From positions 1-59,215 of the forward strand of contig CACWTR010000023.1 in assembly GCA_902763865.1 (NCBI GenBank): 59,215 nt of DNA, given 5' to 3'. This DNA is from an uncultured Bacteroidales bacterium (GTDB taxonomy: Bacteria; Bacteroidota; Bacteroidia; Bacteroidales; Bacteroidaceae). Position 1 is the stretch's first letter, and every line of letters begins with the position of its first letter. Made by a program: the position numbers and the translations under genes. A model generated the notes under the pieces. That model did no database searches. It was given only the letters and a program-made list of their open reading frames with translations, and had not been told where the DNA came from. Shown piece by piece: positions 9,478 through 56,766 of the stretch.

Positions 9478-9543
9478 CCAGTACCACCGCGAGAAAACTC
9501 CAGTACTCCCGCGGGAGTACTCCAGTACCACAGCGGGAGTACT
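9478..9543. repeat. three tandem 22-bp palindromic units, locus 1
   Basis: Units at 9478-9499, 9500-9521 and 9522-9543. The middle unit holds the perfect palindrome AGTACTCCCGCGGGAGTACT. The outer ones are imperfect versions (CCAGTACCACCGCGAG and CCAGTACCACAGCGGG starts). The symmetry centres are exactly 22 bp apart. The array lies between feoB and the FeoB-associated/sialidase gene, probably inside one transcript. Confidence 0.9.
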
Positions 9544-9590
9544 GGACTCAACTCTCGAAAATTAAATTCCTGAACCAAAAACCACGAAAC

Positions 9591-11012
9591 ATGAACATAC
9601 AAAGTATCCTCCTGCTGGCCGCAGTGATAGTTGTTGCGGCCTACGTCCTGTACCGCTACCTGCGCGGTGCAGGCAAATGCAGCTGCTGCGACTGCTGCGA
9701 CAAAGACTGCTGTGCGAAGCTGCTGCTCCTGCTGCTGCTCCTTTCGGTGAATGCCGTGCCCTCCCTGGCACAGGACATCGACGGCACGTCGGGGGCCTCG
9801 GAGCTCCAGCCGACACGGCACGAAGGAAAGCAAATCCTGGCCTTCAGCACCGACAGCCTGCGCGATGTCTATCGCATCCCCGCCATCGCACAGAACCGCA
9901 AGGGCGAACTGGTGGCCGTTTACGACTACCGCGTCTGCGGCACCGACATCGGCTTTGGCGAGGTGGATCAGGTGATGCGCATCTCGCGCGACAATGGCAA
10001 GACCTGGTCGCAGGAGAAAAAGATAGCCGACGGCGTGGGAGGCGAGGCGAATGTCTTCGGCGTCGGTTTCGGCGACCCGGCCCTCTGCCTGGACCGCAAA
10101 AGCGGCAGGGGCGTCCTCATCACGGTCAGCGGACGCTGCATCTACGGCTACGCCACAGCCAGCCACCGTCCCTTCATCGCACGGCAAGTCACCACCGATG
10201 GCGGCCACACCTGGAGCCAGCCGGAGGACATCACCCGACAGTTCTGGGGCCGGAAAGGTGCCATCTTCCAGCAGAGCGAGACGGACGACGGCACGGGCGT
10301 CTTCGCCTGGGCAGGCTTCTTCGGCAGCGGCAAGATACTGCAGAGCCGGCTCACGAAGGTGGGGCAGTACTATCGCCTCTATGCAGCCCTGCTGGTGCGG
10401 GGAACGGGGCTGAAGGGAGCCTACGTGGTCTATAGCGACGACATGGGCATGACCTGGCAGCTCCTGGGCGGCGACCCCGCATTCCAGGCAGCACCGGACA
10501 GCGACGAACCGAAGGTGGAGGAACTCCCCTCGGGTCAGATTGTGCTGAGCGGCAGGAAATGGTACGGTCGCACCTTCAACGTCTGGACCTTTGCCCAAGG
10601 CAGCACTACGGAAGGCTCCTGGGACAAGCCCGTCAACAGCCACGACGCTGCGGGAGGCATCAAGGTGGGGGCCAACAGCTGCAACGGCGAGATACTCATC
10701 CTGAAAGGCAAGCTCGCCGAGAGCGGCAAGTCGTGCTTCGTAGCCCTGCAAAGCCTGCCGAAGGCCGACAAGCGGGCCGACGTGACCATCTACTACAAGG
10801 TGCTGGAGAAAGGCAAGAGCTATACCACTGCCGAGTTTGCCGAGGGCTGGACCGAAGGACTGCAAGTGACGGACCAGCGCTCCGCCTATTCCACCATGTG
10901 CCTGCAAAAGGACCGGCGCATCGCCTTCTTCTACGAGGAGGAACCCTACATCTACAACATGGTCTATGTGCCCCTCAGCCTCAGCCAAGCCACGAAGGGC
11001 AAGGTCAGATAG
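9591..11012 (+). CDS. FeoB-associated Cys-rich segment fused to an exo-sialidase
   Basis: 473 aa. Residues 1-43 (membrane helix LLLAAVIVVAAYVLYRYLRG followed by KCSCCDCCDKDCC) are a typical FeoB-associated Cys-rich membrane protein in its usual place after feoB. Without a stop it continues into LLLLLLLLSVNAVPSLAQ, a signal-peptide-like segment, and then a six-bladed sialidase: YRIPAIA (RIP motif, ~94) and Asp boxes SRDNGKTW, TTDGGHTW and SDDMGMTW. Sialidases release terminal sialic acid from host glycans. No ATG, and no suitable alternative start, lies between the two parts. The topology is workable: Cys-rich loop in the cytoplasm, second helix leading the enzyme into the periplasm. Confidence 0.85.
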   Translation: MNIQSILLLAAVIVVAAYVLYRYLRGAGKCSCCDCCDKDCCAKLLLLLLLLSVNAVPSLAQDIDGTSGASELQPTRHEGKQILAFSTDSLRDVYRIPAIAQNRKGELVAVYDYRVCGTDIGFGEVDQVMRISRDNGKTWSQEKKIADGVGGEANVFGVGFGDPALCLDRKSGRGVLITVSGRCIYGYATASHRPFIARQVTTDGGHTWSQPEDITRQFWGRKGAIFQQSETDDGTGVFAWAGFFGSGKILQSRLTKVGQYYRLYAALLVRGTGLKGAYVVYSDDMGMTWQLLGGDPAFQAAPDSDEPKVEELPSGQIVLSGRKWYGRTFNVWTFAQGSTTEGSWDKPVNSHDAAGGIKVGANSCNGEILILKGKLAESGKSCFVALQSLPKADKRADVTIYYKVLEKGKSYTTAEFAEGWTEGLQVTDQRSAYSTMCLQKDRRIAFFYEEEPYIYNMVYVPLSLSQATKGKVR

Positions 11013-11089
11013 CTCCCCCGCGTCGCGCAAAGCACACCGAATTTAACATTTTTCTGTACTTTCTTGCTGCATAATACAGAAAATATATG

Positions 11090-11097
11090 TACCTTTG
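11090..11097 (+). promoter_or_regulatory. -7 box for the TlpA/DUF6029/Omp28 operon
   Basis: TACCTTTG, 39 bp before the start codon at 11137. A candidate TTCTTG lies about 20 bp upstream. Confidence 0.65.
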
Positions 11098-11136
11098 CAT
11101 CCGAAATAAGTGAGTACTAACTATAATTATTGCATT

Positions 11137-11628
11137 ATGAAGAAATCGATACTTGTTTCGCTTGTGGCGTTTGCCTTTTCCCTGCTTCCTGCTCAGGCGC
11201 AGTTGCCGGCAGTCACCCTGAAGACCATGAATGGAGCCGAAGTGCGCACCGACACGCTCTCCAATGGCGGCAAACCGTTCATCATCGACTTCTTTGCCAC
11301 CTGGTGCAAGCCCTGCAACCGCGAGCTCGATGCCATCAGCGAGGTATATGAGGAATGGCAGGAAGAGACCGGCGTGAAGATCTATGCCGTCAGCATCGAC
11401 CAGGCACAGAACATCAACAAGGTAAAGCCCCTGGTGAGCAATCACGGATGGGAATACGAAGTGCTGCTCGACCCCAACGGCGACCTGAAGCGGGCCCTGA
11501 GCATCCAGATGATTCCCTACGTGCTGATTGTTGACGGGAAGGGACAGATCGTCTATAAGCACAACGGCTATACCGACGGCGCCGAGACGGAACTGATAGA
11601 GAAAGTTCGCGAGCTGCTGAAGCAATGA
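11137..11628 (+). CDS. secreted TlpA/thioredoxin-like protein
   Basis: 163 aa from ATG 11137, giving a signal peptide MKKSILVSLVAFAFSLLPAQ with cleavage near AQA-Q. An ATG at 11110 would precede it with a non-signal stretch and is less likely. Thioredoxin fold: PFIIDFFATWCKPCNRELDA carries the WCKPC active site, and the cis-Pro is in IQMIPYVLIVD. TlpA-like proteins reduce or oxidise thiols of exported proteins in the periplasm. The stop overlaps the next gene by 4 bases. The neighbours include two Omp28-type proteins with CxxC motifs, which could be its partners (inference). Confidence 0.88.
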   Translation: MKKSILVSLVAFAFSLLPAQAQLPAVTLKTMNGAEVRTDTLSNGGKPFIIDFFATWCKPCNRELDAISEVYEEWQEETGVKIYAVSIDQAQNINKVKPLVSNHGWEYEVLLDPNGDLKRALSIQMIPYVLIVDGKGQIVYKHNGYTDGAETELIEKVRELLKQ

Positions 11629-13187
11629 AGAGGGCACTCCTATTCCTGACAGCCTGCTGCTGCCTCCTCAGTGCCGGCGCATGGGACTGGAAAGGTCTCA
11701 ACTTCTCGGGCAGCATACAGAGCGACATGCTTGTTCCCCGCAACGACAGCGGAACAGGAGCCACGAAGACAGGCAGCTTCCTGACCAACACCTACGCCGA
11801 CCTGCTGATGCAGAGCCGCTACGTCGATGCCGGCCTGCGCCTGGAGTTCCTGGAGTATCCGCTGCCCGGCTTCGAAAAGGACTTCGAGGGATGGGGCGTA
11901 CCCCACTTCTGGGTGAAGGGACGCGTAGGCAAGTTCGAGCTGACAGGCGGCACGTTCTACGAGCAGTTCGGCTCGGGCTTCATCCTCCGCACCTACGAGG
12001 AACGTTCCCTCGGCATCGACAACTCGCTGCTGGGAGGCCGCGTCGTGGTGAAGCCCCTGAAGGGAGTGACCCTGAAGGTACTATCCGGCGTGCAGCGTCG
12101 CTACTGGAAGTGGAACAAGTCGGTCGTGAGCGGAGCCGATGCCGAAGTGAACATCGACGAATGGATTCCGCGACTGCAGCTAACAGACACCAAGCTGCTG
12201 GCCGGCTTCTCCTGGGTGAACAAGTACGAGAAGAAGGAAGACATCTACGCCGACCCCACCCACCGCTATAACCTCCCCAAGTTCGTGAACGCCTGGGACG
12301 TCAGGCTCAGGCTGGACAAAGGCCCCTGGAGCGTTCTGGCCGAATACGCCGAGAAGACGCAGGACCCGTCCTTCGACAACCACTACAACTTCGACAAGGG
12401 ACGCGCCGCCATGATTTCAGCGTCCTACTCCGAAAAGGGACTGAGCGTGTTGCTCCAGGCCAAGCGAAGCGAGAACATGTCCTTCCGCAGCAGACGCTCC
12501 ATGAACGGCACCTCGTCCTTCATCAACCACCTTCCCGCCTTCACGCAGGACCAGACCTATGCCCTAGCCGCCATCTATCCCTACGCCACACAGCTTGCCG
12601 ACGGCGAATGGGCTTGGCAGGCAGAAGCCGGCTACAACTTCAAGCGCAACACACCGCTGGGCGGCAAGTACGGCATGAACCTGAAGGCCAACTTCTCGCA
12701 CGTCCGTTGGGAGGGAACCACCAACTATCAGGATATTGACGTGCAGCTGACCCGCAAGTTCTCGAAGGCATTCAAGCTTAGCCTGATGTACATGAACCAG
12801 TTGTACAACCAGACGGTTGTCGAGGGACACGGCGGCATGATTCGCAGCAACATCTTCATTGCCGACGCCAAGTACCAGTTCACGCCCAAGACGACACTGC
12901 GCTGCGAGCTGCAATACCTGACGACGCCTCATGACCAAGGCGACTGGGCCTACGGATTGCTGGAGCTGTCGCTCGCGCCGCACTGGATGTTCACCGTCAG
13001 CGACATGTGGAATTGCGGCACGACGGGCCTGCACTACTATCAGGGCCTCGTCACCTACAACGTCGGGCAGCACCGCATCCAGGGAGGCTACGGTCGCACC
13101 CGTGCCGGCTATAACTGTTCGGGCGGCGTCTGCCGCTATGTGCCTGCCTCAACGGGATGGACGCTCTCCTACAACTTTAACTTCTGA
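11625..13187 (+). CDS. DUF6029 family outer-membrane beta-barrel protein
   Basis: 520 aa. Signal peptide MKRALLFLTACCCLLSAGAW. The rest alternates polar and aromatic residues typical of outer-membrane beta strands and ends with a strand finishing in aromatic residues, GWTLSYNFNF. Recognisable blocks are FSGSIQSDMLVPRNDSGTG, GGTFYEQFGSGFILRTYEER and GHGGMIRSNIFIADAKYQF. The order TlpA-DUF6029-Omp28 in one run with 4-bp overlap or short gaps suggests a shared envelope process. The molecular function of DUF6029 is not known to me. Confidence 0.75.
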   Translation: MKRALLFLTACCCLLSAGAWDWKGLNFSGSIQSDMLVPRNDSGTGATKTGSFLTNTYADLLMQSRYVDAGLRLEFLEYPLPGFEKDFEGWGVPHFWVKGRVGKFELTGGTFYEQFGSGFILRTYEERSLGIDNSLLGGRVVVKPLKGVTLKVLSGVQRRYWKWNKSVVSGADAEVNIDEWIPRLQLTDTKLLAGFSWVNKYEKKEDIYADPTHRYNLPKFVNAWDVRLRLDKGPWSVLAEYAEKTQDPSFDNHYNFDKGRAAMISASYSEKGLSVLLQAKRSENMSFRSRRSMNGTSSFINHLPAFTQDQTYALAAIYPYATQLADGEWAWQAEAGYNFKRNTPLGGKYGMNLKANFSHVRWEGTTNYQDIDVQLTRKFSKAFKLSLMYMNQLYNQTVVEGHGGMIRSNIFIADAKYQFTPKTTLRCELQYLTTPHDQGDWAYGLLELSLAPHWMFTVSDMWNCGTTGLHYYQGLVTYNVGQHRIQGGYGRTRAGYNCSGGVCRYVPASTGWTLSYNFNF

Positions 13188-13209
13188 CCCCTCTTTTACT
13201 TGAAACGGT

Positions 13210-13986
13210 ATGCAGAGACAATATCTATATATAATAATGTGCAGTATCTGCCTAGTGCTGACCGGCTGCGACTACATTGCGGAAGACGAGCGACTGATCT
13301 ACGAGAAGCCAGAGCCTGCGCAGCGCGTCGTGTTGCTGGAGGACTTCACGGGTCAGCGATGCTCGAACTGCCCCACGGCAACGGCGGTCATCGAACAGCT
13401 GCATGAAGCTTACGGCGAAGCACTCGTGGCTGTCGGCATCCACGGCGGTCCGCTGGCTTTTGCAGGCAACGCAAAGGTCGTCGGGCTAAAGACGGACATC
13501 GGCGATGAATACTACAACCACTGGAAACTCGACCATCAACCTGTAGGGCTGATTGACAGGACAGGCTCTGTCGATTACGACCTGTGGGCCACTCGGGTGA
13601 AGGAGGAACTGACCAAGCCTGCTCCCCTGCGCCTGGAGGGAACGGCTGTGCTTGCAGGCGAAGAGGTCAGCATCCATCTCAAGGCTGACACCGACGGGAC
13701 CGTCACGGGCAAGCTGCAAGTATGGCTGCTCGAAGACGGCATACAGACGCTTCAGCTCATGCCGGACGGGACGGCCAATCAGACTTATACCCACAACCAC
13801 GTGCTGCGCACGACAGTCAACGGCACATGGGGCGAGGACTGCATCGTCAAGGAAGCCGAAACTTCGGAATGGACCATGTCGCAAGCGCTGGAGCCGGACT
13901 GGAACCGCGAACAGCTGAGCATCGTGGCTTTCGTCTATAACGACAGCGGCGTGCAACAAACAGTGAAGATAAAAGTTGAACATTAA
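13210..13986 (+). CDS. Omp28-related lipoprotein with CxxC motif
   Basis: 258 aa. Lipoprotein signal peptide with lipobox LTGC (Cys20). Just after it comes VVLLEDFTGQRCSNCPTATA, the Omp28/thioredoxin-like start with CSNC, then a beta-rich second half (LEGTAVLAGEEVSIHLKADT). Omp28 proteins are outer-membrane-associated proteins of Bacteroidetes whose role is poorly known. It follows DUF6029 after 22 bp and overlaps the next gene by about 10 bp at its own stop, consistent with one operon. Confidence 0.8.
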   Translation: MQRQYLYIIMCSICLVLTGCDYIAEDERLIYEKPEPAQRVVLLEDFTGQRCSNCPTATAVIEQLHEAYGEALVAVGIHGGPLAFAGNAKVVGLKTDIGDEYYNHWKLDHQPVGLIDRTGSVDYDLWATRVKEELTKPAPLRLEGTAVLAGEEVSIHLKADTDGTVTGKLQVWLLEDGIQTLQLMPDGTANQTYTHNHVLRTTVNGTWGEDCIVKEAETSEWTMSQALEPDWNREQLSIVAFVYNDSGVQQTVKIKVEH

Positions 13987-13993
13987 AGCCAAT

Positions 13994-14617
13994 ATGCCTA
14001 TGAAGAAATGTTTTACTCTATGTGTTGGAATGCTGATTGCCCTGACCTCTTGGGCGCAGGGTTTCGCTTTCCAGTATCGAGGACAGATTTTGCCCGACGG
14101 GGAGACGGTCATCATCGCTGCCGAGGAGTCTATCTTCGGCGACCTTGCGTGCGAGACGAACAATGCCGACAATCCTGCCGACGGACTGGTGCTCCGCATG
14201 CTTGGCAGCGCAGCAGCCTCCGGTACTGCCACGTTGCAGATTACCAGCAACAGCCTTAACCCAAGCGGCTTGCAATGGTGCATGGGCGGCGCTTGCACGA
14301 ACTTTGGCAACCAGACATCGCTCACCAAGCAGTTCACGGCAGGAGGCGGAGTCACCCTTGTCCAGTTCGACGCTACAGACATTCGCTCCGAGGGACTGCT
14401 TACTGCCACGCTCCGTGCCACCATCGGACTGGAGTCGCACACGGTGAACATCCACTTCGTCAACGGCGACTACGACGGCCTCCGTGCGCTCCCTCAGGGT
14501 GCCGGCAGCGGGAAGAGCTGTTTCGACCTCCAGGGCAGGCCGGTGCAGCGGCAGCAACTGCGCGGCCTCTACATCGTGAACGAGGGGGGACACATCCGCA
14601 AGAAAGCATTCAAATAA
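13994..14617 (+). CDS. secreted hypothetical protein with a C-terminal sorting-type tail
   Basis: About 207 aa from ATG 13994 (MPMKKCFTLCVGMLIALTSW; the next ATG, 14000, is equally possible). After signal cleavage near SWA-Q it is beta-rich with Gly/Thr repeats. There are three Cys in the body (ACETNN, QWCMGGACTN). The end, CFDLQGRPVQRQQLRGLYIV followed by NEGGHIRKKAFK, resembles the C-terminal tails seen on the proteins at 14650 and 25672. I do not recognise a catalytic domain. The position between two Omp28-type genes suggests a role in the same surface complex. Confidence 0.65.
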   Translation: MPMKKCFTLCVGMLIALTSWAQGFAFQYRGQILPDGETVIIAAEESIFGDLACETNNADNPADGLVLRMLGSAAASGTATLQITSNSLNPSGLQWCMGGACTNFGNQTSLTKQFTAGGGVTLVQFDATDIRSEGLLTATLRATIGLESHTVNIHFVNGDYDGLRALPQGAGSGKSCFDLQGRPVQRQQLRGLYIVNEGGHIRKKAFK

Positions 14618-14649
14618 CCTAAGTTTTCAGTCTTAACAACCTTAACATT

Positions 14650-16482: not shown

Positions 16483-16530
16483 ATACCGACATCCCCACAG
16501 GGGCCTGCACCGAAGTGGTCCCCGGAAAGT

Positions 16531-16600
16531 ACACGAGCTTATGGCCATAAGCTCGTGTGCTTATTTCAATAAGCTCGTGAGTCGATGGCCATCGACTCAC
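16531..16600. repeat. three tandem 22-bp palindromic units, locus 2
   Basis: Symmetry centres at 16544.5, 16566.5 and 16588.5, exactly 22 bp apart. The first is a perfect 28-bp palindrome (ACACGAGCTTATGG and its reverse complement), the second GCTTATT-TC-AATAAGC, the third a perfect 24-bp palindrome (GTGAGTCGATGG and its complement). The array lies between the Omp28-type gene and the purD promoter. Confidence 0.92.
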
Positions 16601-16665
16601 GTGCTTCCGACAGCGCACCGCAGAATGTTTCGAGCTACTTCAGTGCACGGAAATACGCAAATAAA

Positions 16666-16697: not shown

Positions 16698-16726
16698 CAG
16701 AGGAAAAACAAACATTATAGTCAGAT

Positions 16727-17995
16727 ATGAGAATACTGTTGTTAGGCAGCGGCGGGCGCGAGCATGCGCTGGCCTGGAAAATCAGCCAAAGCAAGAAATG
16801 CGAGAAACTCTTCATTGCACCGGGCAATGCAGGCACGGCCACCGTGGGCGAGAACGTACCCATGAAGGCCGACGACTTCGATGCCATCAGGACCTTCGTC
16901 CTGAACAACCGGATAGAGATGGTGGTGGTAGGGCCCGAGGACCCGCTGGTGAAGGGCATCTACGACTTCTTCCGGGACGACGCCGAGCTGAAGGACATCG
17001 CCGTCATCGGTCCCTCGAAGGCAGGAGCCGTGCTCGAAGGGAGCAAGGACTTTGCCAAAGGCTTCATGCAGCGGCACGGCATCCCGACAGCGGCCTACCG
17101 GACCTTCGACGGCCTCCACCTGCAGGAAGGGCTCGCCTTCCTGGAGACGTTGCAGCCCCCCTATGTCCTGAAGGCCGACGGACTCTGCGCCGGCAAGGGA
17201 GTGCTCATCCTGCCCACGCTGGAAGAGGCCAAGGAGGAACTCGGCAAGATGCTGGGCGGCATGTTCGGCTCGGCCAGCAGCCGCGTCGTCATCGAGGAAT
17301 TCCTGAGCGGCATAGAATGCTCCGTCTTCGTCCTGACCGACGGCAAAAGCTACAAGATACTGCCCGAAGCAAAGGACTACAAGCGCATCGGCGAAGGCGA
17401 CACCGGCCTCAACACCGGCGGCATGGGCAGTGTAAGTCCCGTACCCTTTGCCACCAAGGAGTGGATGCAGAAAGTGGAACAGCGCATCATCCGCCCCACA
17501 GTGGAAGGACTCCGCTCGGAAGGCATCGACTACAAAGGCTTCATCTTCTTCGGCCTCATCAACACGGGCGGCGACCCGAAGGTCATCGAGTACAATGTCC
17601 GCATGGGCGACCCCGAGACGGAAACCGTCATGCTCCGGCTCAAGAGCGACCTGCTGGACCTGCTGGAAGGCGTAGCCACCGGCACACTGGACGGACGCAG
17701 CATCGCTTTCGACGAGCGCTCAGCCGTCTGCGTCATGATGGTCAGCGGGGGCTACCCCGGCTCCTACGAAAAGGGATTCCCCATCAGCGGCATCCAGGAC
17801 GTGGAGGGCAGCATCGTGTTCCACGCAGGCACTGCACTGAAGGACGGGCAGGTCGTCACCAGCGGCGGACGCGTCATCGCCGTCAGCAGCTACGGCAAGG
17901 ACAAGGAGGAAGCACTCCGCAAGAGCTTCACCGAAGCACAGAAGATACAATTCCACGGCAAGTACTTCCGGCGCGACATCGGCGCTGACCTGTAG
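16727..17995 (+). CDS. purD: phosphoribosylamine-glycine ligase
   Basis: 422 aa, the usual length. N-terminal domain start [23 protein letters not shown]-grasp centre [20 protein letters not shown], then [20 protein letters not shown]. Metal-binding [20 protein letters not shown] then DPETE. The C-terminal domain covers the last ~100 residues. It makes GAR from phosphoribosylamine, glycine and ATP in purine synthesis. It has its own promoter, and a membrane protein gene follows 40 bp later across a short CAATG repeat. Confidence 0.97.
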
Positions 17996-18032: not shown

Positions 18033-18035
18033 TGA

Positions 18036-24866: not shown

Positions 24867-24932
24867 ATTGTTTCCCGCGGGAAACAATTTGTTTCCACTG
24901 GAGAAACAAAGTCTTTCCACTCGTGGGGAAAA
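24867..24932. repeat. three tandem 22-bp palindromic units, locus 3
   Basis: Units 24867-24888, 24889-24910 and 24911-24932, centres 22 bp apart. The first is a perfect palindrome (ATTGTTTCCCG and its reverse complement). The second (TTGTTTCCACTGGAGAAACA) and third (GTCTTTCCACTCGTGGGGAA) are decayed versions. Confidence 0.9.
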
Positions 24933-36787: not shown

Positions 36788-37041
36788 TAAGATTATTCTG
36801 GGTCGTACCACCAGCGCCCTGAAAGGGCGGTAAGCTCATAGCCCAGGGCATCGCCCTGGGGCATAGCGTATATCATCCTTCGCCCTGAAAGGGCAAAAGA
36901 ATAATACAGGAAAGTCTTTTGCCCCTTCAGGGCGTGCCACATGTCACATAGACCACCCAGGGCGATGCCCTGGGCTATGAGCTTACTGCCCTTTCAGGGC
37001 TGTTCCAGAACTAATGAATGGTGGTACGACCCAGGATAATC
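36788..37041. repeat. 254-bp composite inverted repeat built from GCCCTGAAAGGGC and CCCAGGGCATCGCCCTGGG
   Basis: Left arm 36788-36860 (GATTATTCTGGGTCGTACCA, then the two palindromes and TAAGCTCATAG) is repeated inverted at 36955-37041 with an extra ~15 bp. Inside lies another pair, CGCCCTGAAAGGGCAAAAGA and its inverse, around 36880-36934. No ORF and no terminal target duplication could be identified. It is probably a REP/MITE-like cluster. Confidence 0.85.
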
Positions 37042-38289: not shown

Positions 38290-38478
38290 TTTGAGGGAAG
38301 TTAAAGAAGTTATGGAAGTTAGCTCGCAGTGCTCGCTTTGGGGAAGTTAAAGGACAATAGTTTTTGCGGCTAATTTCATGGTTGGAAAACATTCCACATC
38401 CAAAATGTATTGTCTCTTAACTTCTTTAACTTCCCTTAACTTCTTTAACTTCCCCCAATTTCTTTAACTTCCCTTAAT
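38290..38478. repeat. inverted array of TTTAACTTC-type words
   Basis: Left side 38293-38357 has GGGAAGTTAAAGAAGTTATG and similar units; right side 38405-38478 has their inverse, TCTTAACTTCTTTAACTTCC and so on. They flank a 50-bp unique core. The array fills the pyrH-birA spacer. Confidence 0.75.
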
Positions 38479-38482
38479 TTCA

Positions 38483-39385
38483 TTATATAATATACTTCAC
38501 TTCTTTGAATGCGTAGCGGCGTGTCGTGCCGTTGCTGTCTTGCAGAACGAGGTGTCCCGAGGGCTCCACGTCGGTGAGCGTGGCACGGAAGGTGCCGTCC
38601 TTGTCGCTGTAGCCGTGCTCCTGCCCGAGGCGGTAGAGAAGGCTCTTGTAACGGCAGTGCAGGGCGTCGAGGGCGTCGGGACTTCCGTCGGTTATCTGCC
38701 CGAACAGGCGGACGAAACGTTCCATGAAGCGCTCCAGCACCACGCGGCGCTCCACGTCGTGCCCCACGATGTCGGCCAGGGAACGCGGATTGGGTGCATC
38801 GCTCAGGAAGCGGCGCTGATTGACGTTGATGCCAATGCCGATGACGGAACGCAGCACACGGGCGCCCTGCAAGTCGTTCTCGATGAGGATGCCGGCCACC
38901 TTGCTGTCGCCATAGTAGATGTCGTTGGGCCACTTGATGGAGAAGGGGGCAAGGGGCAAGGGGCAAGGGGCGAGGGGCAAGGGGCAAGGGGCAGGGGGCA
39001 AGGGGCAAGGGGATTGCTGGGCCAGATTGTATTCTCCTGCTCCTTGCCCCTTGCTCCTTGCCCCTTCTCCTGCTCCTTGCCCCTCCAAAAAGCTCGTCAG
39101 AGCTTTAGCCAGTGCCAGCGCTGTCGCCTCGGAAAGAGCAAACATCCTGCTGATCGGCAGGTTGGCAGGCTCCACGCGGAGACTCAGCAGGAGGTTCTCG
39201 CCGCGAGCCGACTCCCAGCGGTTCGTGTCGGCTCCGCGGCCCGCCGACTGGTAGTCAGCCGTCACGAGCATCATGGGGCAACCCTCCGCCGCATCAAGGC
39301 GGCGAAGGTAGCTGTTGGTGGAATCCACCTCGTCAAGCTCTATCATGCGGCACGTCAAGCCGCCTATGCTGATGTCTCTCTCCAT
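38483..39385 (-). CDS. birA: biotin-[acetyl-CoA-carboxylase] ligase
   Basis: 300 aa. No N-terminal HTH, so the enzyme-only class. DEVDSTNSYLRRL at the start, SAGRGADTNRWESARGENLL (biotinyl-AMP loop), FSIKWPNDIYYGDSKVAGIL, then VIGIGINVNQ. It joins biotin to the carboxyl-carrier protein. About 50 residues between LTSFL and FSIKWPND are unlike any BirA: GQGAGEGARSKGQGAGE, then repeated PCPLPLA units, encoded by an inverted GGGGCAA heptamer array. The insertion ends next to the catalytic KWPND motif, and the frame is preserved. Whether the protein is active needs a test. Confidence 0.92.
   Translation of the reverse strand: MERDISIGGLTCRMIELDEVDSTNSYLRRLDAAEGCPMMLVTADYQSAGRGADTNRWESARGENLLLSLRVEPANLPISRMFALSEATALALAKALTSFLEGQGAGEGARSKGQGAGEYNLAQQSPCPLPPAPCPLPLAPCPLPLAPFSIKWPNDIYYGDSKVAGILIENDLQGARVLRSVIGIGINVNQRRFLSDAPNPRSLADIVGHDVERRVVLERFMERFVRLFGQITDGSPDALDALHCRYKSLLYRLGQEHGYSDKDGTFRATLTDVEPSGHLVLQDSNGTTRRYAFKEVKYII
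38943..39085. repeat. inverted GGGGCAA heptamer array inside birA
   Basis: Left arm 38944-39012 has about ten GGGGCAA/GGGGCGA units. Right arm 39035-39085 is the inverse (CTCCTGCTCCTTGCCCCTTG and so on). A 20-bp core lies between. The same words occur in licD at 2862-2932. Confidence 0.88.
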
Positions 39386-40632: not shown

Positions 40633-40790
40633 AATTAAGAATTAAGAGAGAAGGATTAAGAATTATTCTTGACGGCAGCCTCCTGCCCCCTTCTCTCCTG
40701 ATTCTTGTCCCTCATCACCGAAAAATCCTTCTCTGTGAATTCTCAATTCTTCTCCTTTAATTCTTAATTCTTCTCTCTTAATTCTTAATT
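40633..40790. repeat. 33-bp inverted repeats of AATTAAG heptamers
   Basis: Left arm 40633-40665 and right arm 40758-40790 match 32 of 33 as inverted copies (AATTAAGAATTAAGAGAGAA start). The 92-bp core also contains TTCTC-type iterations. Located between the kinase pseudogene and the nucleotidyltransferase. Confidence 0.85.
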
Positions 40791-40803
40791 CCACAAGCTG
40801 ACA

Positions 40804-42214: not shown

Positions 42215-42279
42215 CTCTAGAAAATCTAGATAATCTAGACAATCTAGAAGCTCTAGACAATCTAGACAATCTAGAAGTT
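42215..42279. repeat. 9-bp CTAGANAAT tandem array
   Basis: Seven units at exact 9-bp spacing (CTAGAAAAT, CTAGATAAT, CTAGACAAT, CTAGAAGCT and so on) in the rimP-nusA spacer. Each contains or nearly contains the TCTAGA palindrome. Confidence 0.85.
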
Positions 42280-43659: not shown

Positions 43660-46626
43660 ATGAGTGTCAGATTAAACAAAGTAACAAAAGAGTTCAACAT
43701 CGGACTGCAGACAGCTGTTGAGTTTCTTCAGAAGAAAGGCTTCAATGATGTTGAGGCCAATCCCAATTTCAAAATCACCGAAGAGCAGTACGCCACCCTT
43801 CAGAACGAATTCAGCTCTGATAAAGGACTGCGCAAGGAGGCTACACAGCTCATCCAGCAACACATCGGTCAGGCCAAGGAGCGCAAGGAAACTCCCAAGC
43901 CCAAGCCAGTGGAAGAAGCGCAGATTGAGACTCCTAAGGTTGCCGGCCCGAAGATACTGGGACGCATTGACTTGAGTGGCGGACAGAAAGAAGCTCCGAA
44001 ACCGGAGAAAGAGCTGGAACCGAAGCCCGACAAGCCCGTCGCAGTGGAGGAAAAGAAGCCTGAGCCAAAGCCCGTCGTAGTGGAAGAGAAGAAGCCCGAG
44101 CCCAAGCCCGTCGTGGTGGAGGAAAAGAAGGCTGAGCCCAAGCCCGCTCCTGCTCCGAAGAAAGAGGCAGCCAAGCCTGTCATCGCAGAAGAGAAGAAGC
44201 CCGAGCCCAAGCCCGTTGCCGCGGAGGAAAAGAAGCCCAAGCAAAAGCCCACTCCCGCCCCGACACCGGCTCCAACGCCTGCTCCCGCTCCCAAACCGGC
44301 TCCGAAGGAAGCGCCTGCTCCGAAGAAGGAACCCGCCGCACCGGAAGCGGCCCCGAAGGAAAAAAAGGAGGACGAAGTGTTCCGCCTTACACCGGCTGCC
44401 AGCACCATGCCAAGCCTGACCATCAAGGGAAAGATTGACCTCGACAGCCTGAACCAGAACACCCGTCCGAAGAAGAAATCCCACGACGAGCGCCGTCGCG
44501 AACATGGACAAGACGGACAGGGAGGCGACCGCAAGAAGCGCCTGCGCTTAGGAAAGGAGCGTGTCGATGTCAATGCCATAGCCAACCAGCCGCAGCAAAA
44601 CGCACAGAAGAAGAAAGGCGACAATGGCGGACAGGCACAGCAGCAGGCACAAGGCAGCGGCAAGAAGAACAAGAAGCAGAAGAACCAGCCCAAGCAGGCT
44701 CCCGTCCAGCCCGAAGTGAGCGACGAGGAAGTTGCAAAGCAGGTTCGTGAGACACTGGCCCGCCTCACCAGCAAAGGCAGCAAAATGGGCAAGGGAGCCA
44801 AGTATCGCCGCGAGAAGCGCGAAGCCATCCGCCAAGGCATGGAGGAAGAGCTGGCAAACGAGGCAGCAGAGAGCAAGGTACTCAAGCTGACCGAGTTCGT
44901 CACGGCCAACGAGCTCGCCACGATGATGAACGTCCCCGTCACGAAAATCATTGCCACATGCATGAGCATCGGCATCATGGTCAGCATCAACCAGCGCATG
45001 GATGCCGAGACTATCAACCTTGTGGCCGAAGAGTTCGGCTTCACCACGGAATACGTCAGCGCTGAGGTCAGTGCCGCCGTCAGCGAAGAAGAGGACGACG
45101 AGGCAGACCTCGTGCCCCGCGCTCCCATCGTCACCGTCATGGGTCACGTCGATCACGGTAAGACTTCGCTGCTCGACTACATCCGCCAGACCAACGTCAT
45201 TGCAGGCGAGGCAGGCGGCATTACGCAGCACATCGGTGCCTACAACGTGACGCTCGACGACGGACGCCACGTCACCTTCCTTGACACGCCCGGCCACGAA
45301 GCCTTCACTGCCATGCGTGCCCGCGGTGCACAGGTCACCGACATTGCCATCATCATCGTGGCTGCCGACGACGACATCATGCCGCAGACCAAGGAAGCCA
45401 TTGCTCATGCCACGGCTGCCGGCGTGCCCATTGTCTTTGCCATCAACAAAATAGACAAGCCCAACGCCAACCCCGACAAGATAAAGGAAGGACTGGCAGC
45501 CATGAACTTCCTCGTGGAGGAATGGGGCGGCAAGTATCAGAGTCAGGACATCAGTGCCAAGAAGGGAACCGGCGTGGCCGACCTGCTGGAGAAGGTGCTC
45601 CTCGAAGCTGAGATGCTCGACCTCAAGGCCAACCCGAACCGCAAGGCCACGGGTTCCATCATCGAGTCCAGCCTCGACAAGGGACGCGGCTATGTTGCTA
45701 CGGTGCTCGTCAGCAACGGCACCCTGCACGTGGGCGATGTCCTGCTGGCCGGCACGAACTACGGTCGCGTCAAGGCCATGCTCAACGAGCGCGGGCAGCG
45801 CGTACAGGAAATCGGTCCGTCGCAGGCAGCCACCGTGCTCGGCCTGAACGGAGCGCCGCAGGCAGGCGACACGTTCCACGTCATGGACTCCGACCAGGAG
45901 GCACGCGAGATAGCCAACAAGCGCGAGCAGCTGGCACGCGAGCAGGGTCTGCGCACCATGAAGCGTCGCGGCCTGGAAGAGCTGGCACACAACATTGCCC
46001 TGGGCGGCGTGCAGGAACTCAACCTCATCGTCAAGGGCGACGTCGATGGTTCCATCGAGGCCCTCAGCGACTCGCTTATCAAGCTTTCGACGGAGAAGAT
46101 TCAGGTCAACGTCATCTACAAGGCTGTCGGCCAGATCAGCGAAAGCGACGTCAACATGGCTGCCGCTGCCGACAACTGCTTCATCGTTGGTTTCCAGGTG
46201 CGCCCCTCTGCCGCAGCACGCCGCCTTGCAGACCAGATGGATGTAGATATCCGCCTCTACAGCGTCATCTACGATGCCATCGAGGAGGTGAAGGATGCCA
46301 TGGAAGGCATGCTCTCGCCCGAGATAAAGGAGGAGGTGACGGCACAGGTGGAGGTGCGTCAGGTCTATCACATCACGAAGGTGGGCACCGTGGCCGGTGC
46401 ATACGTCGTAGATGGCAAGGTGAGCCGCACGAACAAGGCCCGCGTCATCCGCGACGGCATCGTGGTCTTCACCGGAGCCATCAATGCGCTGAAGCGCTTC
46501 AAGGACGACGTGAAGGAGGTGAGCACCAACTTCGAGTGCGGTATCTCGCTCGTCGGCTACAACGACTTGCGCGAGGGCGACATGATTGAGACTTTCCAGG
46601 AGATAGAAATCAAGGCAACGCTGTAA
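43660..46626 (+). CDS. infB: translation initiation factor IF-2
   Basis: 988 aa. N-terminal winged helix ([20 protein letters not shown]), then a long Lys/Pro/Glu/Ala-rich linker (~90-260) built from near-identical [11 protein letters not shown] units. The second N domain has [21 protein letters not shown] domain: G1 GHVDHGKT, G3 DTPGHEAF, G4 NKIDKP. Domains II to IV continue to the C-terminus, EIEIKATL. It places initiator tRNA on the ribosome. The repetitive linker is common in Bacteroidetes IF-2. Confidence 0.97.
44036..44250. repeat. [11 protein letters not shown] coding repeat in infB
   Basis: Four to five degenerate copies of a unit of about 45-60 bp encoding [11 protein letters not shown], rich in codons for Pro, Lys and Glu. 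Part of the disordered IF-2 linker. Confidence 0.75.
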
Positions 46627-47845: not shown

Positions 47846-47910
47846 TTATACAAATTCTATAATAGGAATCCTATAATCGTCGTTCATATTCCGTCAAAGC
47901 GTTCCTTTGT

Positions 47911-47976
47911 TTGCTTCATCGCAATGGAGTGATTGCTTCATCGCGATGAAGCAATTGCTTGTTCGCGATGAAGCAA
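47911..47976. repeat. three tandem 22-bp palindromic units, locus 4
   Basis: Centres at 47921.5, 47943.5 and 47965.5. The middle one is a perfect 24-bp palindrome (ATTGCTTCATCG and its reverse complement). The flanking ones are imperfect (TTGCTTCATCGCAATGGAG and TTGCTTGTTCGCGATGAAGC). Located upstream of the sufB promoter. Confidence 0.9.
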
Positions 47977-48038
47977 CGAAGTCATCGTGTAGTGTTTGGC
48001 AACAAAACTGCATTTGCACTCGGAAATACCCTAATTAT

Positions 48039-49536: not shown

Positions 49537-49540
49537 CTGG

Positions 49541-49668
49541 GGATTTAATGGATTAGGGATTAGGAGGATTAGAGATTAGGGATTAGAGATTAGAGATTAG
49601 AGATTAGGGATTAGGAGGATTAGAGATTAGGGATTAAAGGATTAGAAATTAGAAATTAAGGACTAAAG
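49541..49668. repeat. GGATTAG/AGATTAG heptamer array
   Basis: About 16 heptamer units, with occasional AGGATTAG or AAATTAG variants, fill the whole sufB-rhaB spacer. I see no canonical promoter or terminator in it. Confidence 0.88.
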
Positions 49669-49671
49669 ATA

Positions 49672-51144: not shown

Positions 51145-51151
51145 AACCTTC

Positions 51152-52414: not shown

Positions 52415-53236
52415 ATGAACAGCATACTCGATACCCGCCCTGCCCTGCGTGCCGTCATCGACGAAGTGGCCGAAGTGACCGGCTACCTCTGGCAGAAGGG
52501 ATGGGCAGAGCGCAACGGCGGCAACATCACCGTGAACATCACGGAGCACGCCGACGAGGAGATGGCCTCGCTGCCTGCCATCGCTCCCGTCGGGCAGATA
52601 GGCAAGCGGCTCCCCTTCCTGCAAGGCAAATACTTCTATGTAAAGGGAACGGGCAAGCGCATGCGCGACCTTGCCCGCCAGCCTATGCAGAACGGAGCCG
52701 TCATCCGCATCTGCCCCGACTGCGCTTCCTACGAAATCATTGCCGACGAACCGGTACTGCCCACCAGCGAACTGCCCAGCCACCTGGCCCTGCAAAACTA
52801 CCTTCTCCAGACGGGCAGCAGCTACAAGGCCACACTCCACACGCATCCCATCGAGCTGGTTGCCATGAGCCACAACGAGCGCTTCCTGCGCCCCGGCGAG
52901 ATGACCCGCGTGCTCTGGTCCATGATACCCGAGACGCTGGCCTTCGCCCCCTTGGGCATCGGCATCGTCCCCTACACCCTGCCCGGCAGCGTAAAGCTGG
53001 CGGATGCCACACTGGAACAAATCAAGGAACACGACGTAGTGCTCTGGGAGAAGCACGGCACGGTGGCCGTGGGAAAGGACATCATGGATGCCTTCGACCA
53101 GACCGACGTGCTCTGCAAGGCAGCAAACATCTATATGTGTGCCCGCTCGATGGGCTTCGAACCCGACGGCATGACCCCGGAGGCCATGCGCGAAGTGCAG
53201 CAAGTCTTCAAGCTGCCTACAAAGAGACCTTGTTAA
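52415..53236 (+). CDS. rhaD: rhamnulose-1-phosphate aldolase
   Basis: 273 aa. Class II aldolase with zinc-binding His in ATLHTHPIELVAMSHNERFL and the third His in LWEKHGTVAVGKDIMDAFDQ. The N-terminus GWAERNGGNITVNITEHADE is typical of RhaD. It splits rhamnulose-1-phosphate into DHAP and lactaldehyde. It starts immediately after the rhaA stop, and sufC begins 12 bp after its own stop, so sugar catabolism and Fe-S assembly genes appear in one transcript. Confidence 0.95.
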   Translation: MNSILDTRPALRAVIDEVAEVTGYLWQKGWAERNGGNITVNITEHADEEMASLPAIAPVGQIGKRLPFLQGKYFYVKGTGKRMRDLARQPMQNGAVIRICPDCASYEIIADEPVLPTSELPSHLALQNYLLQTGSSYKATLHTHPIELVAMSHNERFLRPGEMTRVLWSMIPETLAFAPLGIGIVPYTLPGSVKLADATLEQIKEHDVVLWEKHGTVAVGKDIMDAFDQTDVLCKAANIYMCARSMGFEPDGMTPEAMREVQQVFKLPTKRPC

Positions 53237-53248
53237 TACAGAACATAC

Positions 53249-54001
53249 ATGCTAAAGATAGAAAACCTGCATGCCAGCATCAATGGCAAAGAGATACTGA
53301 AAGGCGTGAACCTGACGGTGCGCGACGGCGAGGTGCATGCCATCATGGGCCTCAACGGAGCGGGCAAGAGTACCCTCTCCAACGTCATCGTCGGACATCC
53401 TTCCTATGAGGTCACAGAGGGCAGTATCACCTGGGACGGAAAGGACCTGCTGGCCCTCAAGCCTGAGGAGCGAGCCCACGAAGGCATCTTCCTGAGCTTT
53501 CAGCAACCGGTGGAGATACCGGGCGTGTCGATGGTCAACTTCATGCGAGCCGCCCTGGGCGCCAAGCGCAAGTATCAGGGACTCGAGCCCTTGCCTGCCC
53601 CCGACTTCCTGAAACTCATGCGGGAGAAACGCGCCGTAGTGGAGCTGGACAGCAAGCTGACGAGCCGGAGCGTGAACGAAGGCTTCTCGGGCGGAGAGAA
53701 GAAGCGGGGCGAGATATTCCAGATGGCAATGCTCGAGCCGAAGCTTGCCATCCTGGACGAGACGGACAGCGGACTCGACGTGGATGCCCTGCGCACCGTG
53801 GCCGAGGGCTTCAACAAGCTGCGCCGCCCCGAGACGAGTGCCATCGTCATTACCCACTACCAGCGCTTGCTCGACTATCTGAAGCCCGACGTCGTGCACG
53901 TCCTCATCGACGGTCGCATCGTCAAGACGGCTGGCCCCGAGCTGGCCGCTGAGATTGAGAGCCACGGGTTTGACTGGATAATAAAAGGGCTGTCGTTATA
54001 A
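53249..54001 (+). CDS. sufC: SufC ATPase
   Basis: 250 aa ABC ATPase. Walker A GLNGAGKST, signature FSGGEKKRGEIFQMAMLEPK, Walker B LAILDETDSGLD, and H-loop IVITHYQRLLDYLKPDVVHV. It powers the SufBCD scaffold. It should follow sufB; here rhaD precedes it by 12 bp. The end overlaps a tandem 16-bp element (GTTATAACGTCATAAC, GTTATACCGTCATAAC) that runs to sufD. Confidence 0.97.
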   Translation: MLKIENLHASINGKEILKGVNLTVRDGEVHAIMGLNGAGKSTLSNVIVGHPSYEVTEGSITWDGKDLLALKPEERAHEGIFLSFQQPVEIPGVSMVNFMRAALGAKRKYQGLEPLPAPDFLKLMREKRAVVELDSKLTSRSVNEGFSGGEKKRGEIFQMAMLEPKLAILDETDSGLDVDALRTVAEGFNKLRRPETSAIVITHYQRLLDYLKPDVVHVLIDGRIVKTAGPELAAEIESHGFDWIIKGLSL

Positions 54002-54026
54002 CGTCATAACGTTATACCGTCATAAC
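53995..54026. repeat. tandem 16-bp near-palindromes at the sufC stop
   Basis: GTTATAACGTCATAAC followed directly by GTTATACCGTCATAAC. The first contains the sufC TAA. Confidence 0.7.
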
Positions 54027-54033
54027 AGAAGCA

Positions 54034-55269
54034 ATGGAAGCAACGAAGCAATACATAGATTTCTTTGGCGAGGTGCGCGACGTGCTTGCCGCCCGCAGTT
54101 GCAGCGAGATGAATGCCCGGCGCGAGGATGCCCTAAAGGTGTTTGCCGAGCAGGGGTTCCCTTCGCGCAAGGTTGAGCGCTACCGCTATGCGAATGTCGA
54201 GGCCGACTTCTCGCCCAACTACGGCATACAGCTCTCGCCGCTCGGACAGAAGCTGCCGCCCTACTGCTTCCGCCTGTCGGAGGCCGACCCTCGCGTGCGC
54301 GTATTATATAATAATGTAGCAGATGAGGCGGACAGCATCGTGGCCCTGAACACGATGCTTGCAGTCGATACGCTTGTAGTCCACGTGCCGCGGGGAACAA
54401 AGGTGGAGCACCCCATACAGGTGGGCAACGTCCTGGCGGGCAGTCAGGACACGATGGTCAGCCGCCGTCTGCTCATCGTCATGGAAGAGCTCTCCGAGGC
54501 CGACATCATCATCACCGACCGTGCTGCCTCGCAGAACCGCTTCCTGACGAATCAGGTCGTGGAGGTCGTCATGGGCGACGGCTCGCACCTCAACCTCTAC
54601 GACATCGAAGAGACACACCTGCTCTGCACGCGCTATGGCAGCACCTTCGTGCGTCAGGGCCGCAACAGCAGCCTGCACCATACAGCCCTGACGCTCTTCA
54701 ACGGCCACACGCGGAACCGCCTCGACGTCCTGCTGCAGGGCGAGGGCAGCGAAGTGACCCTGGGCGGCTGCGTCATTGCTGACAAGATGCAGCACGTCGA
54801 TAACAACACCCTCATCGACCATCAGGCACCCGGCTGCACGTCCAGCGAGCTCTACAAGTACGTCCTCGACGACAACGCCGTCGGTGCCTTTGCCGGCAGG
54901 GTGCTGGTGCGCGAAGGGGCGCAGAAGACCAGCAGCCAGGAGACGAATGCCAACCTCCTGGCTACCCGCACGGCCCGCATCTACACGCAGCCGATGCTCG
55001 AGATATATGCCGACGACGTGCGGTGCAGCCACGGCAGCACTGTCGGCCAGATGGACGAGGCCGCCCTCTTCTATATGCGGCAGCGAGGCATCAGCGAAGC
55101 GGAGGCACGCCTGCTGCTCAAGGCCGCATTCATCACCGAAGTCATTGAAACCATTCCCCTCCACTCGCTGCGCGACCGCCTGCACGTGCTGGTCGATAAG
55201 CGACTGAGAGGCGAACTGAGCAAGTGCGAAGGGTGCAAACTCTGTGGACCCCCTCTAACTCCCCCGTAA
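54034..55269 (+). CDS. sufD: Fe-S cluster assembly protein SufD
   Basis: 411 aa. SufB/D family core: TLVVHVPRGTKVEHPIQVGN, VVEVVMGDGSHLNLYDIEET, EGSEVTLGGCVIADKMQHVD, then CSHGSTVGQMDEAALFYMRQ. It forms the SufBCD complex with SufB and SufC. The last residues, GPPLTPP and the stop codon, come from the left arm of a REP-like palindrome (55247-55277) instead of native sequence; the native end is probably near GCKLC. Confidence 0.95.
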   Translation: MEATKQYIDFFGEVRDVLAARSCSEMNARREDALKVFAEQGFPSRKVERYRYANVEADFSPNYGIQLSPLGQKLPPYCFRLSEADPRVRVLYNNVADEADSIVALNTMLAVDTLVVHVPRGTKVEHPIQVGNVLAGSQDTMVSRRLLIVMEELSEADIIITDRAASQNRFLTNQVVEVVMGDGSHLNLYDIEETHLLCTRYGSTFVRQGRNSSLHHTALTLFNGHTRNRLDVLLQGEGSEVTLGGCVIADKMQHVDNNTLIDHQAPGCTSSELYKYVLDDNAVGAFAGRVLVREGAQKTSSQETNANLLATRTARIYTQPMLEIYADDVRCSHGSTVGQMDEAALFYMRQRGISEAEARLLLKAAFITEVIETIPLHSLRDRLHVLVDKRLRGELSKCEGCKLCGPPLTPP

Positions 55270-55277
55270 AGGGGGAG
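55247..55277. repeat. REP-like left arm ending sufD
   Basis: GACCCCCTCTAACTCCCCCG then TAAAGGGGGAG. The TAA is the sufD stop. Its inverted partner is at 55336-55369 inside the sufS start. Confidence 0.85.
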
Positions 55278-55295
55278 AAAAGATAGTAATTGCAG

Positions 55296-56639
55296 ATGGA
55301 TAAGATAAAATATAATCAATCGAAAAAGGAAACTTCTCCCCTCCCTTTAAGGGAGGGTTGGGGAGGGTCCTTCCCTATCCTGGAGAAGGTCATCTACGGC
55401 AAGTACCCGCTGGTCTATCTCGACAACGCCGCCACGACGCAGAAGCCGCGCTGCGTGGTCGAAGCCATGACGGACGAGTACTACAACGTCAACGCCAACG
55501 TGCACCGCGGCGTACACTTCCTCTCGCAGCAGGCCACGGAGCTGCACGAGCAGTCGCGCGAGACGGTGAGGCGCTTCCTCGGTGCCCGCTCGACGAGAGA
55601 GATTGTCTTCACCCGCGGCACCACGGAGAGCATCAACCTCGTGGCATCGTGCTTCGGACAAGCCTTCATGAAGGAGGGCGACGAGGTCATCATCTCCGAG
55701 ATGGAGCACCACAGCAACATCGTCTCCTGGCAGCTCGTACAGGCGCGGCAGGGCATCCGTCTGCGCGTCGTGCCCATCACCGACGACGGCCTTCTCCGCA
55801 TGGACGAGTACGAGAAGCTCTTCAACGAGCGCACGCGCCTCGTCAGCCTGACGCACGTCAGCAACGTCCTGGGCACGGTCAATCCCGTGCGCGACATCGT
55901 CCGCATCGCCCACGACCACGGCGTGCCCGTCCTCATCGACGGCGCACAGAGCACCCCCCACATGCCTGTCAACGTGCAGGAGCTGGACTGCGACTTCTTC
56001 GCTTTCAGCGGCCATAAGATATACGGCCCTACCGGTATCGGCGTACTCTACGGCAAGGAGGAGTGGCTTGACCGCCTTCCGCCCTACATGGGAGGCGGCG
56101 AGATGATTAAGACGGTCAGCTTCGAGCACACCACCTTCAATGACCTGCCCTACAAGTTCGAGGCCGGCACACCCGACTACGTAGCCTCCACCGGCCTGGC
56201 CCGCGCCCTCGACTACGTCACCTCCATAGGCCTCGAAGCCATCGAAGCCCACGAGCGCGACCTGACAGCCTACGCCCTCCGGCGCATGAACGAGATTGAA
56301 GGCATGCACATCTTCGGCCCCACCGACCCCGTTCAGCACGACGCCGTCATCAGCTTCCTGGTGGAGACCCCCTCTAACTCCCCCGTAAAGGGGGAGGACA
56401 AAGGCCCCCTTCCTTTACGGGAAGGTCGGGGAGGGTCTTCCTTCATCCACCATCTCGACATGGGCACCCTGCTTGACCGCCTCGGCATAGCCATCCGCAC
56501 CGGCCACCACTGCGCCGAGCCCCTCATGCACCGCCTCGGCATCGAAGGCACCTGCCGTGCCAGCTTCGCCCTCTACAACACGCGGGACGACGTCGATGCC
56601 CTCGTCGCAGGCATCCGACGCGTCAGCCAGATGTTCTGA
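55296..56639 (+). CDS. sufS: cysteine desulfurase SufS
   Basis: 447 aa from ATG 55296. PLP-binding Lys in FFAFSGHKIYGPTGIGVLYG and the active Cys in IRTGHHCAEPLMHRLGIEGT. It takes sulfur from cysteine for Fe-S assembly. Two REP-like insertions interrupt it in frame. One is at the N-terminus (SPLPLREGWGG before SFPILEKVIYGK). The other, 72 bp or 24 codons, lies between AVISFLVE and FIHHLDMGTLLDR (TPSNSPVKGEDKG, then PLPLREGRGGSS). Both use the same frame of the element as in feoB. The insertion lengthens a surface loop, leaving the core intact. Last gene of the suf run. Confidence 0.95.
   Translation: MDKIKYNQSKKETSPLPLREGWGGSFPILEKVIYGKYPLVYLDNAATTQKPRCVVEAMTDEYYNVNANVHRGVHFLSQQATELHEQSRETVRRFLGARSTREIVFTRGTTESINLVASCFGQAFMKEGDEVIISEMEHHSNIVSWQLVQARQGIRLRVVPITDDGLLRMDEYEKLFNERTRLVSLTHVSNVLGTVNPVRDIVRIAHDHGVPVLIDGAQSTPHMPVNVQELDCDFFAFSGHKIYGPTGIGVLYGKEEWLDRLPPYMGGGEMIKTVSFEHTTFNDLPYKFEAGTPDYVASTGLARALDYVTSIGLEAIEAHERDLTAYALRRMNEIEGMHIFGPTDPVQHDAVISFLVETPSNSPVKGEDKGPLPLREGRGGSSFIHHLDMGTLLDRLGIAIRTGHHCAEPLMHRLGIEGTCRASFALYNTRDDVDALVAGIRRVSQMF
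55336..55369. repeat. REP-like right arm in the sufS N-terminus
   Basis: CTCCCCTCCCTTTAAGGGAG then GGTTGGGGAGGGTC, translated PLPLREGWGG. Confidence 0.85.
56366..56437. repeat. complete REP-like paired palindrome in sufS
   Basis: Left arm GACCCCCTCTAACTCCCCCG with TAAAGGGGGAG, eight bases, then right arm CCCCTTCCTTTACGGGAAGG with TCGGGGAGGGTC. Total 72 bp, a multiple of three, no stop in the used frame. Confidence 0.9.
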
Positions 56640-56700
56640 TCCACCGGTCCCTTCAGCCACAAAGTTCCACGGATTACCGTTCTTCGTGCGGCGCACAGCG

Positions 56701-56766
56701 TTGCACGTACATGTAGATGCAATTGCACGTACATGTATGTGCAATTGCATCTACATGTACGTGCAA
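56701..56766. repeat. three tandem 22-bp palindromic units, locus 5
   Basis: Units 56701-56722, 56723-56744 and 56745-56766, all TTGCAYSTACATGTANRTGCAA-like. The whole 66 bp is also one near-perfect palindrome with two mismatch pairs. Located between the convergent sufS and AraC-type genes. Confidence 0.93.

Follow-up and report, generated by a model that had tools for sequence, protein, structure and literature searches.

Unrelated families of dispersed palindrome arrays share a 22-bp pitch in an uncultured Bacteroidales bacterium and its genus

Intergenic DNA of an uncultured Bacteroidales bacterium (Bacteroidaceae; GenBank assembly GCA_902763865.1) contains short tandem arrays of mostly palindromic units that keep a length of 22 bp while their sequence differs from family to family. 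They came to attention in contig CACWTR010000023.1, a stretch of 59,215 nucleotides (hereafter "the window"), where a sequence-only reading had described five loci, each with three palindromes whose symmetry centers lie 22 bp apart. On balance, we favor the explanation that these loci belong to five families of short nonautonomous mobile elements that resemble repetitive extragenic palindromes (REPs) and bacterial interspersed mosaic elements (BIMEs) and that act as duplex DNA. Such dispersed repeats are a known kind, met here in a new form: pitch is conserved more strictly than symmetry, and symmetry more strictly than sequence.

All five loci have the geometry described, although the earlier frame at locus 1 was off by one base. 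Out of a maximum of 11 paired positions per unit, the successive units have 5, 10, and 8 at locus 1; 11, 8, and 11 at locus 2; 11, 6, and 6 at locus 3; 7, 11, and 9 at locus 4; and 9, 10, and 9 at locus 5. These counts bear out the claim of at least one perfect or near-perfect unit per locus, yet several units are poor palindromes. By our gene calls (made with a simple codon-score script), all five loci are intergenic, as had been claimed. The units abut with no unique spacers between the repeats, so these are not clustered regularly interspaced short palindromic repeats (CRISPRs). The cores and the units flanking two of them, none of which is assigned a strand, are as follows.

9479–9544: family 1 core, three 22-bp units of the CAGTACYMCCG type (the earlier frame was one base to the left)
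16534–16599: family 2 core, three units with halves CGAGCTTATGG / TGAGTCGATGG; its dispersed copies are weaker
24867–24932: family 3 core, unit 1 a perfect palindrome and units 2 and 3 pairing at 6 of 11 positions; has dispersed copies
47889–47910: flanking 22-bp unit of locus 4, hypervariable
47911–47976: family 4 (type A) core, 66 bp, upstream of sufB; found in at least 39 other places
47977–47998: flanking 22-bp unit of locus 4 on the opposite side, hypervariable
56679–56700: left flanking unit of locus 5, common to three other copies
56701–56766: family 5 (type B) core, 66 bp; relatives in four other species
56767–56788: right flanking unit of locus 5, where the similarity of the four copies stops

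A scan for period and symmetry that ignores sequence, as the sequence-only reading had proposed, placed 22 bp far above other periods and above resampled sequence, both in this genome and in its genus. The own-genome scan covered 757,108 bases, comprising the window and 40 further stretches picked around BLAST hits; the density of arrays in those stretches is therefore biased, whereas that of the window (five in 59 kb) is not. Each sequence was compared with a single first-order Markov resample, and a letter shuffle served in the re-inspection of junction partners that fell below the cut (see below). Period 22 gave 82 centers with a three-unit sum of at least 25 of 33, and in the resample of the same bases every period from 12 to 60 was empty. 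The runner-up periods were 33 (20 centers), 44 (11), and 51 (7); the weaker signals at 33 and 44 arise because the half unit is 11 bp and half units alternate in orientation. Runs of at least two palindromes pairing at 8 of 11 positions numbered 81 at 22 bp, eight at 21 bp, two at 24 bp, and none at 20 or 23 bp. The number of units was said to be exactly three, which is usual (40 of 47 own arrays in the two TTGC families) but not universal, the other seven having four.

The pitch reaches far beyond the window. In a genus sample of 25 genomes (1.42 Mb, after five masked pieces of genome G005 were dropped), we found 45 period-22 centers versus none in one resample. Scored by palindromes alone, arrays reaching 22 of 33 occur in 15 of the 25 genomes and arrays reaching 24 or more in 10. 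A combined pitch-plus-symmetry score, in which lag-22 identity is added to symmetry, was applied to 1268 gaps of at least 66 bp from the own genome and its relatives, a set that includes the biased own-genome stretches. By this score, arrays occupy 211 gaps (resample, 0); other pitches pass in 2–18 gaps each, but 21 bp passes in 44. Such arrays are present in 20 of the 25 genomes, although those with a single array may owe it to chance, because other pitches also pass. They fill 18 of 50 gaps in G012, 31 of 95 in G026, and 22 of 76 in G034. With lag identity alone, 22 bp is found in 148 of the 1268 gaps, 21 bp in 31, and every other lag from 15 to 33 in at most 17 each. There is thus a secondary tandem-repeat peak at 21 bp, next to that at 22 bp, in both the lag-identity (31 gaps) and the combined (44 gaps) scores. 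The units themselves vary widely, with AATAATGGTTAACCATTAT in G012 and G023, TTGAACATACATGTATGTTCAA in G034, and others in G008, G014, G016, G020, and G024; the claim that architecture and period are conserved rather than sequence accordingly extends to unrelated units in other sampled members of the genus.

The earlier view that the loci are unlike ordinary REPs or miniature inverted-repeat transposable elements (MITEs) did not survive, because each locus is a copy of a dispersed, sequence-related family, and the same is true in the relatives. A search of the own genome (2.91 Mb, 75 contigs) found dispersed relatives of every window locus, with 102 other places tallied, weak family 2 matches included. 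Scoring of 40 of 61 candidates placed locus 4 at no fewer than 39 additional sites, and 34 of these cover the full 66-bp core; loci 1, 2, 3, and 5 have fewer copies, and family 2 is the weakest. The window thus shows, by chance, one member of each of five families. That the unit differs at every locus is correct within the window but not genome-wide, and even in the window loci 4 and 5 have TTG...CAA feet in common; their units mix in arrays elsewhere in the genome. The exact family 4 unit had no match in a collection of named genomes (from which the own genome was possibly left out), and two unit patterns had no exact match in viral contigs.

The family 4 (type A) core has its halves in the order a|b', a|a', c|a', where a is TTGCTTCATCG, and is flanked on each side by one hypervariable 22-bp unit. 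Mean pairwise identity is 0.83 among 31 three-unit cores and 0.93 among 19 all-A cores, and falls to 0.50 in 76 flanking units and 0.26 in the DNA 44–66 nt to the left. The 76 outward flanks keep a skeleton, with AA at positions 3–4 in 69, C at position 7 in 65, and C at position 10 in all 76. Between left and right flanks, complementarity is below shuffled at positions 1, 2, and 9, and position 4 behaves in the opposite way; within flanking units, pairs 6–17, 9–14, and 11–12 pair less than shuffled, and pair 8–15 does the opposite. In family 5 (type B), the whole 66-bp core is an inverted repeat with one mismatch (half unit 1 matches 6, 2 matches 5, and 3 and 4 differ once). Four of the six copies listed have 22 + 66 + 22 bp in common and then diverge, and two of these four share more to the right. 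In 40 three-unit arrays, types A and B switch only at unit borders, the half-unit strings being AAAAAA in 20, AABBAA in 10, BBBBBB in seven, and single mosaics in three. The 11-bp half units alternate in orientation in the mosaics, which is the alternation characteristic of REPs and BIMEs.

Families also differ in reach. Family 5 has relatives in five species (G000, G034, G005, G026, and G012), and many of the cross-species matches end at or near the 66-bp core, a pattern that shows descent. For the G012 family, 81 matches were counted in G012 and 80 in G023, with 40 candidates scored per genome; G000, G034, and G026 have none.

Gene context was evaluated for 45 of 51 arrays, six being dropped because one side lacked a called gene. 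Of these, 42 are fully intergenic and three overlap a called gene end by 3–39 nt. They fall into 23 tandem, 15 divergent, and seven convergent gaps, compared with 56, 24, and 16 kb of such DNA, so that gap types are used roughly in proportion to the DNA available, with no clear gene-orientation bias. Orthologous junctions were compared first with a palindrome-only cut, by which arrays were on both sides in two of 19 pairs, one of these being the same genome twice (several rows of that test represent one junction, six of them N232). Partners just below the cut turned out to hold genuine 22-bp arrays from different families, so the junctions were scored again by pitch plus symmetry, and this rescoring weakens the claim that arrays are missing from the same junctions. 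By the new score, 33 of 41 orthologous pairs with an array have it on one side only (for 15 of them, the partner gap is shorter than 66 bp). Per junction, presence in one species and absence in another is more frequent than sharing. Three own gaps with arrays measure 143, 153, and 210 bp, and their array-free counterparts in relatives −4, 2, and 58 bp, a difference of ∼150 bp. Together with the one-sided junctions, this fits insertion of a short element.

If the arrays are mobile elements of this kind, recognition would be of duplex DNA, with a dimeric or oligomeric protein on successive units two helical turns apart as the most likely reader, and new copies would be inserted by an enzyme. Recognition of this kind would account for a pitch that stays fixed as sequence, and sometimes symmetry, varies, and for the indifference to transcription direction and to RNA wobble pairing (see below). 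Whatever the family or species, unrelated units have exactly the same length. A stem-loop gives no reason for so exact a length; a duplex-binding protein would, because 22 bp brings neighboring units to the same side of the helix. Another possibility is that all arrays go back to a single ancestral array whose unit length was never altered, in which case the exchange of whole units would help to preserve that length. More tentatively, and rather improbably in our estimate, a dedicated factor of the genus may read the fixed two-turn pitch while being loose on sequence and symmetry, in an array system independent of every known class of transposase. If so, unrelated families could replace one another on one scaffold, sometimes at the same junction.

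Several results count against mobile elements as the explanation, beginning with the junctions that are shared. When both gaps are at least 66 bp, arrays are on both sides in eight of 26 orthologous pairs, and seven of these eight junctions hold unrelated units in the two species. (The eighth, cvpA–sufB in G012 and G023, has one family in both; in the own genome, an array likewise lies in the cvpA–sufB interval but was left out of the count because an extra reading frame intervenes.) The eight shared junctions exceed the 5.3 expected by permutation within genome pairs (p 0.02), an expectation that is high because arrays are dense in these genomes, and a coarser permutation by gap size gave six versus 1.8 expected. 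Some site preference or site function is therefore possible, as is replacement of the sequence at kept sites. Symmetry is weak (at most 17 of 33) in 30 of the 211 arrays, some of which are near-identical direct repeats; because these arrays keep the pitch, dyads are not essential to it, and it seems to last longer than the palindromes themselves. The ends of the element are less conserved than its middle, the reverse of a typical transposon. No mover was found, and family 4 shows no target duplication (the longest shared outer-flank word averages 3.95, vs. 4.04 in mismatched pairs). Its flanking units lack consistent arm covariation, with one pair of 11 at p 0.018 and three pairs below shuffled. 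Finally, pairing at the innermost pair drops to 0.53 in the "rest" group of 11 genomes, as in a looped hairpin.

The alternative that survives best, although we consider it unlikely, is that the arrays are operators or chromosome-organizing sites for a host protein that needs the 22-bp pitch, so that the sequence turns over and the site stays. A fixed two-turn pitch, conservation of the core far above that of its flanks, and the excess of shared junctions, seven of them with unrelated arrays, are all what such sites should produce. However, the excess is lost at larger minimum gaps (six shared vs. 4.2 expected at ≥100 bp, p 0.10; six vs. 4.6 at 150 bp, p 0.16), there is no clear bias toward gene starts or gene ends, most array-bearing pairs are one-sided, and one genome has five unrelated families. 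Gene context likewise disfavors operators in particular, along with terminators.

Far less probable is the classical arrangement in which the genome's own Y1 (HUH) transposases, the REP-associated tyrosine transposases (RAYTs), recognize the units in the form of single-stranded hairpins and disperse them. The alternating palindromic units do look like BIMEs, and the own genome has four RAYT-like genes (window 79–1203, and others on contigs C18, C45, and C66) as well as one shorter Y1 transposase; three of the four match NF047646 below cut-off. The window gene (79–1203, minus strand) encodes a RAYT-like Y1 transposase of 374 aa, with its NF047646 match below cut-off, and related proteins in the genus are ∼350–550 aa and very diverse. 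Searches used the C18 protein against 61 genus genomes, NF047646 against 20, and PF01797 in the own genome only. None of the four own genes has a 22-bp palindrome array closer than 1.2 kb, although the window gene borders a contig end and is nearly unseen on one side. Near 30 RAYT loci (110 kb), a loose cut gave six arrays; a somewhat stricter cut gave 50 in 1,424 kb, so there is no clear excess, and 75 RAYT neighborhoods (863 kb) contained five. Arrays are in fact rarer where RAYT matches are many: they occupy 10 of 147 gaps in nine genomes with at least five C18-protein matches (counts that include gene pieces) versus 65 of 264 in 13 genomes without one. Seven array-bearing genomes (G012, G023, G008, G024, G020, G022, and G027) have no match to the C18 protein or NF047646, although these are drafts, 72%–88% complete, in which single absences are uncertain. 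None of 38 family 4 elements has a GTAG, GTGG, or CGTC tag within 3 nt of the core on either side. Thus, neighborhoods, genome-level searches, and array counts all fail to support a RAYT as the mover.

The short Y1 gene (G000:C4:17736–18074) is flanked by another type of repeat. At ∼17286–17461 of the same contig there is an eight-copy direct 22-bp array, related to family 2 but with unlike arms, ∼275 bp from that gene; it was dropped as a lead because the gene carries the other repeat type. The window has two stretches of that other type as well (∼36807–37035), with palindromes of the GCCCTGAAAGGGC and CCCAGGGC-GCCCTGGG types.

We find it hard to credit that a local replication process (slippage, template switching, or palindrome correction) makes or repairs the arrays in place, as the sequence-only reading had suggested. 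No such process was shown, although whole 22-bp units are exchanged. It would account for the covarying arms of unit 1 in all-A arrays (z 3.7), for between-unit changes that are more often two-sided (383) than one-sided (289) in own arrays, a comparison inflated by A/B exchange, and for the arrays that are near-identical direct repeats. But distant copies share one core, so that dispersal would be needed too, and the flanking units do not turn palindromic.

Least credible of all are transcribed hairpins or terminators acting on mRNA, among them the three adjacent RNA hairpins once proposed: most units could form a stem, and the weaker innermost pairs of some species are loop-like, but the exact pitch is not needed by a hairpin, 15 of 45 arrays lie between divergent genes (which rules against intrinsic terminators), and there is no clear strand bias, the polarity of family 4 relative to flanking codirectional genes being the same in seven cases and opposite in five. 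On the coding strand, G–U mismatches (34) do not exceed A–C mismatches (49), so pairing does not look as if it were kept for RNA, and Rfam gave no match in the window and only tRNAs in six scanned loci.

The nearest known systems differ from the arrays in specific ways. The BIMEs of enterobacteria are mosaics built from short palindromic units, intergenic, dispersed, and modular. Excerpts of one source describe these units as alternating in orientation (PMC2817692). The arrays are similarly short, mostly palindromic, extragenic, high-copy, dispersed, modular, and alternating, but their units abut at a fixed 22-bp pitch, are usually three in number, belong to several unrelated families, and lack a GTAG tag (family 4). 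The GTAG and CGTC REPs, also short, palindromic, and high-copy, have an end tag and are mostly head-to-head dimers, according to parts of PMC3733652; the same parts place CGTC REPs in Bacteroidetes, with 8–9 bp stems and 4–5 nt loops, and state that they lack a dedicated transposase. The arrays have no foot tag (family 4) and are usually triplets, and with the tag missing in family 4 and the RAYT tests negative, we do not classify them as GTAG/CGTC REPs or as RAYT-mobilized elements. Structured repeats of TnpA-Y1 subclass 2.6, also of Bacteroidetes and also with copies elsewhere in the genome, flank their transposase gene (PMC6006769, in extract); here, another repeat type lies beside the short Y1 gene and no array lies beside the four own RAYT-like genes. 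Lastly, the BrickBuilt MITE of Porphyromonas gingivalis is, in the portions of PMC4596501 cited, an intergenic, dispersed, species-restricted 23-nt tandem minisatellite without spacers, made of direct repeats in one to ∼23 copies, with a leader, a tail, and IS5-like inverted ends. It shares with the arrays its order (Bacteroidales) and the form of a dispersed intergenic tandem repeat without spacers, but the arrays have 22-bp, mostly palindromic units, usually three, and no such ends were found; in a check for MITE-like terminal repeats, GGATGC/GCATCC ends were visible in one copy. Among the papers listed by literature searches, we recognized none that describes this architecture.

Other tandem repeats occur in the window. 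Intergenic minisatellites with a basic period of 7–9 bp lie at 49551–49662, 40724–40791, 38416–38485, 42216–42277, and 5432–5488; their sequence differs from place to place, making them a second class of tandem repeat with locus-specific units. At 44031–44263, tandem repeats of 36 and 105 bp (multiples of three) lie within a 988-aa reading frame.

Dispersed repeats of bacteria are usually recognized by their sequence, whereas here a 22-bp pitch outlasts sequence across the sampled species of a genus, and in some species an array occupies about one-third of the sampled wide intergenic gaps. The arrays add to the repeats for which no transposase is known. With their unrelated units on a common scaffold, they also form a natural series for asking what a repeat-reading protein or transposase measures and whether repeat families invade a pre-existing architecture.

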